A stretch of 64,000 nucleotides of DNA from Spirochaetales bacterium (GTDB taxonomy: Bacteria > Spirochaetota > Spirochaetia > Treponematales > UBA12059). This document shows, piece by piece, positions 22,289 to 46,112 of the stretch (the first letter of the stretch is position 1; the number at the start of each line of letters is the position of its first letter). Made by a program: the position numbers and the translations under genes. The DNA lies in the NCBI GenBank assembly GCA_016926955.1, contig JAFGNN010000007.1, positions 1 to 64,000 of the forward strand, read 5' to 3'. The notes under the pieces were generated by a model. The model had not been told where the DNA came from, searched no databases, and saw only the letters and a program-made list of their open reading frames with translations.

Positions 22289-24369
22289 CCAGGCTCGGGC
22301 CCGCGAAATCGCGTCTCTTCGCGATCGCGGCCTGCCTGCTGGCCGCGCTGGCTTCCTGCGCCCACCCCTTGCTGGAAAACGCCGGCCCCGCCGCCGCCCC
22401 GACCGCGGAGGACAGCCCGCGCGCGGCGCTCGCCCTGCCCTCGCTCGACGGCATCGCAGCCTTCCGCGTCACCGGATCGGGACCGGACGGGGCGGTCTAC
22501 GGTCCCGAGGCGCTGCCCGGGGTCACGGGCCAGGGCGGCGAGCTCGTCGAGACTGCGGAGCCGCTCGCGCTCGGCGAGTGGACCTTCACGGTGGAGGCGC
22601 TCGACGGGCTCGGCGACGTCGTGAGCAGCACGAGCTTCAGCTACACCGTGGACTGGAACGACGAGCGCGCCGAGCTCGTCCTCGTCGCGCCGGAAAGCGG
22701 CGACGGAAGCATCGTCGTGACGGCCTGGTGGCCGGACGGTGTCGTGCTCGGCCCCGGCGACGGCTACGGAAACCGGATTCCGCCGGTGGTGACGGTGGAG
22801 TACGAAATCGAGGGTACGCCGTTCGGAGCGACCGTATCCGGTCCCGTTTCAGACGGATGGTTCGAGGGAAGCGTCCACGCGCTCGCCCCCGGCCGCTACC
22901 TGGTCCGCGCCCGAGTGCTCGCCAACGGCGAGGCCGTCTGGGGCGCCGCCCTGCCGGCCCTGGTCAGCTCGGGCCTGCAGACCACGGTGAGCTTCCACCC
23001 CGAGGACGGCGAGGTGAACGCGCCGCCCAACGTCTACGCGGCCGCCGCCCCCGGGGAATACCTTCCCTTCGCGACGACGACGCTCGAAGGTACCGATTCC
23101 TGCACCGACGTCTCCTACACCGCGGACGGCTCAGCTCCCGCAATTCCGAGCGCGGCCTACGGCGGGGAGGACGTATCTCTCGGCCCCTGGAACATCCGCA
23201 TCGCCGCCTCGAACGCCTGGGGCGAGCAGGCGGCGGCGTCCGTCAATCCGGACACATACTCGTTTGCGGTGCACGTGGCGACAACGGGCGACGACGGGAA
23301 TGCGGGCACACCCGAGCTACCCTTCCTGAGCCTCCAGCCCGCGATCGATATCGCCTCATCGTTTGCCAATCTGTACCTGTCAGGCGATCGTATGGTCAAG
23401 GTCCGCGTGGCTTCGGGAACCAGCTACACCGATCCTGACGGTCTCACAGTCTCCGGAGCCATACATCTCAGCGGTGGGTGGAGCCCGGGCTTCGTAGCCC
23501 GGACTGGCACGCCGGAGGACACAAAGCTGATCCGTAATCCACCGAACGACCCGATTTTCGAAAGCGTCCTCTCCATTGACCCCACTGTCACCGAACTCGT
23601 ACGCGTCGAGAACTTCACGTTTGCGAACGTAACACCGCCAAACGCTGGAATGACCACGGCCATAAGCGTCGAAGGTTCCGGCCGTTTCGAACTACTCGAC
23701 AGTATCCTTGCGGGCGGTAAAGGCGATGATGCCTCCGTCGGTCTCCGCTCGATCGGAGGTGCCGACCTGGTCCTGCTCCGCAACCGGATTTGGGGGGGCG
23801 AAGGCGCAACGGACGCCCTCGGCGGCACAGTGCGCGGTGTTTTGGTTGACGGCGGCTCGCCGTTGGTCTACCTCTCCTCGAACGCGATCATGGCCCGGAA
23901 ACCCGGTGAAGCGGCAGGGATGGTCGACGCCGTCGGCGTCGAGATCGTCGCGGACGCCGGAGAGACGGTCGCACTTCGCATGTACGGCAACACCGTCGTC
24001 GCCGACGGGGACACTTCGCTGGCGTTGCGGCTGAACGCTGCCGATCTGGATTGGATCCCGCACGTCGTCGTCAACAACGCGCTCGCGGCGCCCGGCGGCG
24101 CCAGCGCTCCCGCCGTCGTCGCGACGAACAACTTCCTCACGACCGACCTCGCCGCGCTCGCCGATGCCCTCGTAGGCAGCCTCGACGGCATCGTCGACTA
24201 CGCGGACTTCGCCGCCATGAACTGGACTCCATCGTCGACCACGGACGGCGACGCGCTCGCGACCGGCGGGTCAGCGGATCCTGACCCGGGCACGAGCGAC
24301 GAGGACCTCGACCTGGCGGGCACGGCGCGCACCGTCCCCTGGTCCATCGGCGCCATGGAGCGGGAGTAG
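22285..24369 (+). CDS. surface lipoprotein with beta-helix-like (DUF1565-like) segment
   Basis: AIAACLLAALASC lipobox; VHVATTGDDGNAGTPELPFLSLQPAIDIAS followed by beta-helix-like repeats. Start codon uncertain (TTG). Confidence 0.65.
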   Translation: MTRLGPAKSRLFAIAACLLAALASCAHPLLENAGPAAAPTAEDSPRAALALPSLDGIAAFRVTGSGPDGAVYGPEALPGVTGQGGELVETAEPLALGEWTFTVEALDGLGDVVSSTSFSYTVDWNDERAELVLVAPESGDGSIVVTAWWPDGVVLGPGDGYGNRIPPVVTVEYEIEGTPFGATVSGPVSDGWFEGSVHALAPGRYLVRARVLANGEAVWGAALPALVSSGLQTTVSFHPEDGEVNAPPNVYAAAAPGEYLPFATTTLEGTDSCTDVSYTADGSAPAIPSAAYGGEDVSLGPWNIRIAASNAWGEQAAASVNPDTYSFAVHVATTGDDGNAGTPELPFLSLQPAIDIASSFANLYLSGDRMVKVRVASGTSYTDPDGLTVSGAIHLSGGWSPGFVARTGTPEDTKLIRNPPNDPIFESVLSIDPTVTELVRVENFTFANVTPPNAGMTTAISVEGSGRFELLDSILAGGKGDDASVGLRSIGGADLVLLRNRIWGGEGATDALGGTVRGVLVDGGSPLVYLSSNAIMARKPGEAAGMVDAVGVEIVADAGETVALRMYGNTVVADGDTSLALRLNAADLDWIPHVVVNNALAAPGGASAPAVVATNNFLTTDLAALADALVGSLDGIVDYADFAAMNWTPSSTTDGDALATGGSADPDPGTSDEDLDLAGTARTVPWSIGAMERE

Positions 24370-45733: not shown

Positions 45734-45780
45734 GGCCGCGCCGCCTCTCGGGAGCGGGACCCGACACCCCAAAAAAAGCG

Positions 45781-46046
45781 AAACCCCGCTCTGTCGAGCG
45801 GGGTTTTCCTTTCTGCTGCCCAGAGGGGGACTTGCCCTTCGGCCGCGCGCTTCCTGCGCGCGACCTCCGGGCCGCCTCGCTCGCTTGACCTCGCATCCTG
45901 CGAGGTCACCGGCATGTCGCGCTGCGAGTCTCGCGCGCCCTGCCGGCGCGAGCTCGGTTCAAGTCCCCCTCTGGGCCTATCGCAAAAAAGGAAAACCCCG
46001 CTCTGTCGAGCGGGGTTTTCCTTTCTGCTGCCCAGAGGGGGACTTG
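45781..46046. repeat. 54-bp direct repeat pair plus inverted copy of the tRNA-Leu 3' end enclosing structured DNA
   Basis: Direct copies 45781-45834 and 45993-46046; inverted arms 45818-45834 and 45960-45976. Confidence 0.9.
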
Positions 46047-46112
46047 AACCCCCATGCCGGTTAAGGCACTAGAACCTGAATCTAGCGTGTCTGCCAATTT
46101 CACCATCTGGGC
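46029..46112 (-). tRNA. tRNA-Leu (CAG anticodon)
   Basis: Minus strand GCCCAGATGGTGAAATTGGCAGACACGCTAGATTCAGGTTCTAGTGCC...GGGGGTTCAAGTCCCCCTCTGGGCA; acceptor GCCCAGA/TCTGGGC; long variable arm; CCA not encoded. Confidence 0.95.

Follow-up and report, generated by a model that had tools for sequence, protein, structure and literature searches.

A tRNA-linked family of TLR-type structured RNAs in spirochaetes with candidate CsrA-binding loops

Downstream of a tRNA-Leu gene of a Spirochaetales bacterium, the tRNA 3' end recurs in inverted and in direct copy around a highly structured core. What is this element, and what could it do? The window that we analysed is a stretch of 64,000 nucleotides (GenBank assembly GCA_016926955.1, contig JAFGNN010000007.1, positions 1 to 64,000). 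A sequence-only reading of the locus had proposed a multibranched RNA or a mobile palindrome bounded by tRNA-derived ends, and had named an att-like scar, a tRNA-derived MITE, and a structured noncoding RNA as candidates.

ARAGORN places tRNA-Leu(CAG) at 46029-46112 on the minus strand (Rfam tRNA, 53.7 bits), in accordance with the proposal that the second copy of a repeated block is the real tRNA-Leu end. This block, 54 identical nucleotides in two copies 212 bp apart, is present and proves to be part of a longer direct repeat of 63 nt at 97% (45772-45834 and 45984-46046). The 21-nt inverted copy of the tRNA 3' end (45956-45976) and the perfect 17-bp arms (45818-45834 and 45960-45976) are also as described. 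Downstream of the tRNA, toward lower coordinates, the order is T1, a', core, a, and T2. The features are as follows.

46029-46112, minus strand: tRNA-Leu(CAG) gene, source of both arms (ARAGORN; Rfam tRNA 53.7 bits).
45987-46024, minus strand: T1, terminator-like hairpin between the tRNA and the unit, with 17-bp perfect arms and a T-run (inverted repeat; putative function).
45956-45976, minus strand: arm a', 21-nt reverse complement of the tRNA-Leu 3' end, the outer 16 nt of which form P1 with arm a (inverted repeats; MFE fold pairing).
45832-45962, minus strand: core and inner arm ends (match to covariance model R1, 79.9 bits, E 1.4e-11 in the genome).
45875-45957, minus strand: P2, CC-GA...GA-GG helix enclosing P3 and P4, pairing 45956-45957 with 45875-45876 and 45948-45953 with 45879-45884 (MFE fold; covarying helix).
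45908-45947, minus strand: P3, variable hairpin, extended in the window copy (MFE fold).
45887-45907, minus strand: P4 hairpin, apex CAGGATG at 45894-45900, a CsrA-type GGA loop (sequence, MFE fold, loop statistics).
45834-45872, minus strand: P5 hairpin, apex CAGGAAG at 45850-45856, a CsrA-type GGA loop (sequence, MFE fold, loop statistics).
45818-45834, minus strand: arm a, 17-nt direct copy of the tRNA-Leu 3' end (repeat search, sequence comparison).
45775-45812, minus strand: T2, second copy of the terminator-like hairpin (inverted and direct repeats).

The minus (tRNA-sense) strand folds as RNA at -121.5 kcal/mol, with z = -11.3 versus shuffles; for the plus strand, z = -8.6. The three stems noticed earlier within the core all exist, but their loops TTCCT and TCC belong to the antisense strand, and the tRNA strand reads AGGAA and GGA. 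Elsewhere in the window, an ARAGORN call of tRNA-Val(GAC) at 24016-24106 is a probable false positive, with the T-loop consensus absent and a coding-like context.

The segment is not unique, and related units occur throughout its own genome and its relatives. In each unit, an inverted copy of the tRNA 3' end (a') comes first, then a four-helix core of about 108 nt, and last a direct copy (a). When the window's genome and 40 relatives are searched at the DNA level, tRNA-Leu(CAG, TAA, GAG, and CAA) and tRNA-Ala(CGC) turn out to be followed by similar sequence; at these loci the core is common and the arms match the neighbouring tRNA. The covariance model R1, built from 12 cores with most of the arms left out, gives 11 matches at E < 0.02 in the own genome. 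It matches 22 of the 23 genomes of the window's family, at about 6-17 copies each, and 179 of the 296 genomes of the order; a few further matches fall in other families and classes of Spirochaetota. Scanning GTDB genomes for the Leu-type 3' junction yields ten MAGs with spirochaete labels (Spirochaetes, Spirochaetota, Spirochaetales, or Spirochaetaceae); the sole non-spirochaete pattern match, in an Oscillibacter MAG (L170), is without an R1 match and is attributed to chance. In an Rfam 15 search, nothing apart from tRNA reaches the gathering score in the units, and matches to rnk, RsmY, and CsrB lie below the cut-offs, on terminators or GGA-rich stretches. An assembly artefact, raised by the sequence-only reading, is ruled out by related units, some in tandem, in the single-contig genomes G035 and G474. 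Judged by sequence and predicted fold, the units are a large family of structured RNAs of the TLR type, real and widespread. In addition, we observe a second, shorter core family, GTTTTGTAAGGAAATTGATTGTATG-hairpin-GTAAAT, at tRNA-Cys (L181 and L203) and tRNA-Pro GGG (L183 and L213) of G000/G001. It likewise has inverted and direct tRNA arms, and it is tandem at tRNA-Pro.

The conserved structure is closed by P1, the tRNA-derived helix, which has 16-17 bp in the window. P2 encloses the variable P3 and P4, and is followed by P5 with its GGA/GGA and GA/GA internal loops. When the copies are aligned by sequence without reference to the fold, 22 of the 30 pairs change on both sides, a number reached by none of 500 shuffles, and shifting the partner by one to three columns abolishes the covariation signal. 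With 131 copies in an alignment fitted to the model, 28 of the 30 pairs change on both sides and 88.8% of the cells are paired. Mismatches are strand-biased (G.U 76 versus A.C 27; G.A 350 versus C.T 17), indicating that folding takes place on the tRNA strand, either as RNA or as single-stranded DNA. The conserved core, the strong covariation, and the tRNA-sense bias support the proposed multibranched noncoding RNA with tRNA-derived ends.

To describe the linkage to tRNA genes, we use 125 copies taken from the best model and DNA matches, a non-random sample. By definition, a TLR immediately follows a tRNA or rRNA gene, and 119 of the 125 copies lie behind a same-strand tRNA (16 isotypes; median distance from tRNA end to core, 61 nt). 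Five of the other six follow a tmRNA 3' end (L148), a tRNA 3' fragment (L064, L127, and L152), or another unit near a contig edge (L101); L133 has no recognisable partner. In 61% of copies, arm a and its own tRNA agree at 13 or more of 16 positions; for tRNAs of other isotypes, the figure is 0.4%. The corresponding values for arm a' are 37% and 0.1%. In Treponema-type genomes, a' spans the T-loop and T-stem portion only. The absence of the acceptor part from these copies weakens the idea of a tRNA mimic excised by RNase P. The idea that the tRNA end was copied by snap-back from the terminator hairpin fails as a full account, because the short a' arms begin on the core side, not the terminator side.

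Units are also found between tRNA genes (Ser-unit-Ser-unit and Arg-unit-unit-Lys), upstream of secE-like and L25-like reading frames (read by eye), and, in G032, in both 16S-tRNA-Ala-unit-23S spacers seen (rRNA ends checked in L138). By their position, at least these units in operons and 16S-23S spacers would have to be co-transcribed with stable RNA. The window unit would lie inside the tRNA transcript through T1 read-through only, and expression in the window's family depends on read-through because T1 precedes the unit. Neither the att-like scar nor the tRNA-derived MITE finds support: conserved RNA structures recur by most tRNA isotypes, in operons and in rRNA spacers, with arms tracking each tRNA, and no transposase or recombinase was noticed in connection with them. 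We regard the assignment of the units to the TLR-type structured RNAs as very probable.

Several single loci depart from the usual arrangement. In L148 (G011:C41:39700-41200), the unit follows an apparent tmRNA 3' end (GGACGCGGGTTCGACTCCCGCCACCTCCA) and has tmRNA-derived arms. In L064 (G000:C11:31307), a tRNA-Val 3' fragment precedes the unit, and the intact tRNA-Val(TAC) (G000:C11:46667-46740) is about 15 kb away, as if a genomic island, on entering the tRNA-Val gene, had displaced the unit to the far end of the island. In L029 (G006:C126), the unit is inverted relative to its own tRNA-Leu, with both arms intact. REP-like hairpins with ACGACAATCCATTCC-type sequence lie in or beside arrays (L050, L091, L193, L209, and other array ends).

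Both conserved loops, P4 and P5, read CA(N)GGANG. P4 loops are mostly CAGGATG, CATGGATG, or CAGGGATG. P5 loops are mostly CAGGA(A/T/C)G, and about a fifth read CACGAN, without GGA. CAGGA is 26 sd above dinucleotide shuffles, and GGA is unpaired in 401 of 604 cases on the sense strand versus 1 of 67 on the antisense strand. GGA in hairpin loops is a mark of CsrA-sequestering RNAs: CsrB repeats read CAGGA(U/A/C)G, and RsmE binds with high affinity to an ANGGAN hexaloop (PMC7652899).

With exceptions, the distribution of csrA points in the same direction. We find csrA in 169 of the 179 unit-bearing genomes, the other ten being mostly incomplete assemblies. Units are present in 169 of 260 genomes with csrA, leaving 91 without a unit, versus 10 of 36 genomes lacking csrA (Fisher p = 3.6e-5; the correlation is phylogenetically clustered). 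In family f4, by hand count from lists, units occur in 11 of 11 listed genomes with csrA and in 0 of 14 listed genomes without it; the losses of csrA and units are clustered on the tree and so may represent few events. In G093, which is 99% complete, units are present, csrA is not found, and both P4 loops have lost GGA. From these loops and this distribution we predict that the units bind CsrA, with the odds tilting slightly in favour. CsrA titration is the best-supported candidate function suggested by the sequences.

Our preferred explanation, to which we assign a probability of about 60%, is that the units are small RNAs of the TLR type that are released from tRNA precursors and titrate CsrA. 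It builds on the anatomy, the conserved structure, its strand, the tRNA linkage, the exact gain and loss described below, and the loop motif, all read from the DNA itself. In the window, transcripts reading through T1 behind tRNA-Leu would carry the unit and stop at T2. Processing of the tRNA precursor would release a five-helix RNA closed by the tRNA-derived P1, and P4 and P5 would display the CA(N)GGANG loops for CsrA to bind. With about ten copies per genome, some in tandem, CsrA would be soaked up in proportion to tRNA and rRNA transcription, i.e. to growth rate. Exchange between the repeated tRNA 3' ends would let units come and go whole and leave the tRNA intact.

The strongest competitor keeps the TLR-type structured RNA and gives it a role other than CsrA binding, as an anti-Shine-Dalgarno ribosome decoy, a base-pairing sponge like 3'ETS-leuZ, or an element of tRNA processing. 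GGA is also Shine-Dalgarno-like, and the CACGAN loops retain A, G, and A rather than GGA; however, two separate hairpins fit the CsrA consensus, in hexaloop and pentaloop forms, and units are absent from csrA-less clades. Precedents for other roles exist, as tRNA trailers can serve as sponges (PMC6191717) and most E. coli TLRs, known since 1978, have no known function (PMC8144298). We consider a role unrelated to CsrA unlikely, at perhaps less than half the weight of CsrA titration.

Gain and loss of units can be followed by comparing the tRNA loci of G000 with those of its congener G001, where empty and filled orthologous sites are found. At Leu(GAG), the site is empty in G001, where the tRNA is flanked by the sequence that in G000 follows the second arm. 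Therefore, the segment T-a'-core-a has been inserted or removed exactly, with the tRNA intact. At Gly(TCC), G000 is empty; G001 is filled and has a duplicated terminator. At Ser(GCT), only fused arms are left in G000, the core having been lost between AACCGA repeats. Arrays differ in what they share: near-identical cores in G474 (L132 and L134), and identical spacers with different cores in L036. Closely similar cores (88% at different tRNAs within one genome, 90% between families) are seen as well. Whole-unit gain and loss therefore occurs as judged from these comparisons, and a mobile aspect is real.

Could the units then be selfish cassettes at tRNA 3' ends, moved by a trans-acting recombinase or copying enzyme, with the structure kept for mobility? 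Recombination between the arms can also give the exact gain and loss that such a cassette would explain. Near-identical cores at different tRNAs of one genome and across families, tandem arrays with differing cores, the one inverted unit (L029), and decayed and scar copies would all fit. Against this, no helper gene was noticed, the arms need rebuilding at each tRNA, and the CsrA-type loops and the csrA correlation are left unexplained, which makes a selfish cassette improbable. Integron attC sites, REP/REPIN elements, retrons, and bridge RNAs were considered on their general features and set aside, with no matching ends or helper gene noticed.

The stems of orthologous units differ wholesale between G000 and G001 yet pair, and some are now perfect palindromes; template switching at hairpins has therefore probably contributed to the paired changes. 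That the units are merely functionless quasi-palindromes, grown and 'corrected' by template switching at tRNA terminator hairpins, is highly improbable even with a P5 stem turned perfect palindrome at Pro and Met (G000 versus G001), because loop sequences, internal loops (GA/GA and GGA/GGA), and junctions are kept across families and the strand bias of the mismatches is unexpected from repair alone. A wider version of CsrA titration is speculative and, to our minds, doubtful: a genome-wide set of interchangeable tRNA-3'-end cassettes with at least two core families, the second at tRNA-Cys and tRNA-Pro, would spread between tRNA genes, have both arms rebuilt at each new tRNA, and form a distributed CsrA sponge, coupling CsrA activity to stable-RNA transcription across Spirochaetia.

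Among known systems, the TLRs of E. coli K-12 are the closest. There are 22, each ending in 18-19 bp identical to the 3' end of the tRNA or rRNA before it (PMC8144298); in the window, 17 nt are identical and continue into the 63 nt at 97%. E. coli TLRs, including RtT (RF00391, behind tyrT and tyrV), resemble the units in lying in the 3' flank of tRNA or rRNA genes, in repeating the upstream 3' end, and in having one to several copies in tandem, some of them lying between tRNA genes. RtT shares, in addition, a P1-like pairing of GGGGAAGGAT with the repeat. The spirochaete units differ in phylum, in a core that is distinct by covariance model, in the extended inverted arm, in GGA loops in two hairpins of most copies, and in their 16 isotypes. 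The Rfam model of RtT is unmatched in the window and seven loci at E <= 1, and R1 against RtT scores at noise level. On these sequence comparisons, the spirochaete units qualify as TLRs by definition and are set apart from RtT by sequence model.

The E. coli TLRs RrA, RrB, and RrF sit within a pair of terminators, arise by read-through transcription, and are bound by CsrA in vitro; their effects are only modest, and 19 of the 22 E. coli TLRs are predicted non-binders of CsrA (PMC8144298). In the rrn operons of Enterobacteriales, they share with the units the dual terminators, the upstream 3'-end repeat, a CAGGACG-loop hairpin preceded by GGCCCGGAGG, and, as predicted for the window, T1 read-through. 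Unlike the units, they lie behind 5S rRNA and have no clear long inverted arm. The window layout is that of RrB with a tRNA in place of 5S. In E. coli L224:592-712 (rrn T1-T2 spacer, RrB type), the hairpin GGCCCGGAGG...GGGCAGGACGCCC closely resembles P5 of the units, a likeness that may reflect distant homology or convergence. R1 aligns to the RrB-type stretch locally at P5 only, at 14.5 bits, which is not above chance matches there.

3'ETS-leuZ is likewise a functional RNA from the 3' trailer of a tRNA precursor, as proposed for the units, but it base-pairs with sRNAs and has no tRNA-end repeat (PMC6191717). CsrB, CsrC, and RsmZ carry repeated CA(N)GGANG hairpin loops as the units do, whereas the units have two conserved loops each, tRNA linkage, and a complex conserved core; the CsrB model gives noise-level matches only on the unit loci. 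We know of no CsrB-type RNA in spirochaetes, and of no precedent for such units in a phylum other than Proteobacteria, at most isotypes and mostly with CsrA-type loops. If the CsrA reading is true, spirochaetes gain a candidate RNA antagonist of CsrA that is linked to growth rate. Compared with the E. coli TLRs, the units, most of which keep CsrA-type loops, make up a far larger set that belongs to another phylum and rearranges quickly, and their filled and empty sites make the origin and function of TLRs testable by comparison.
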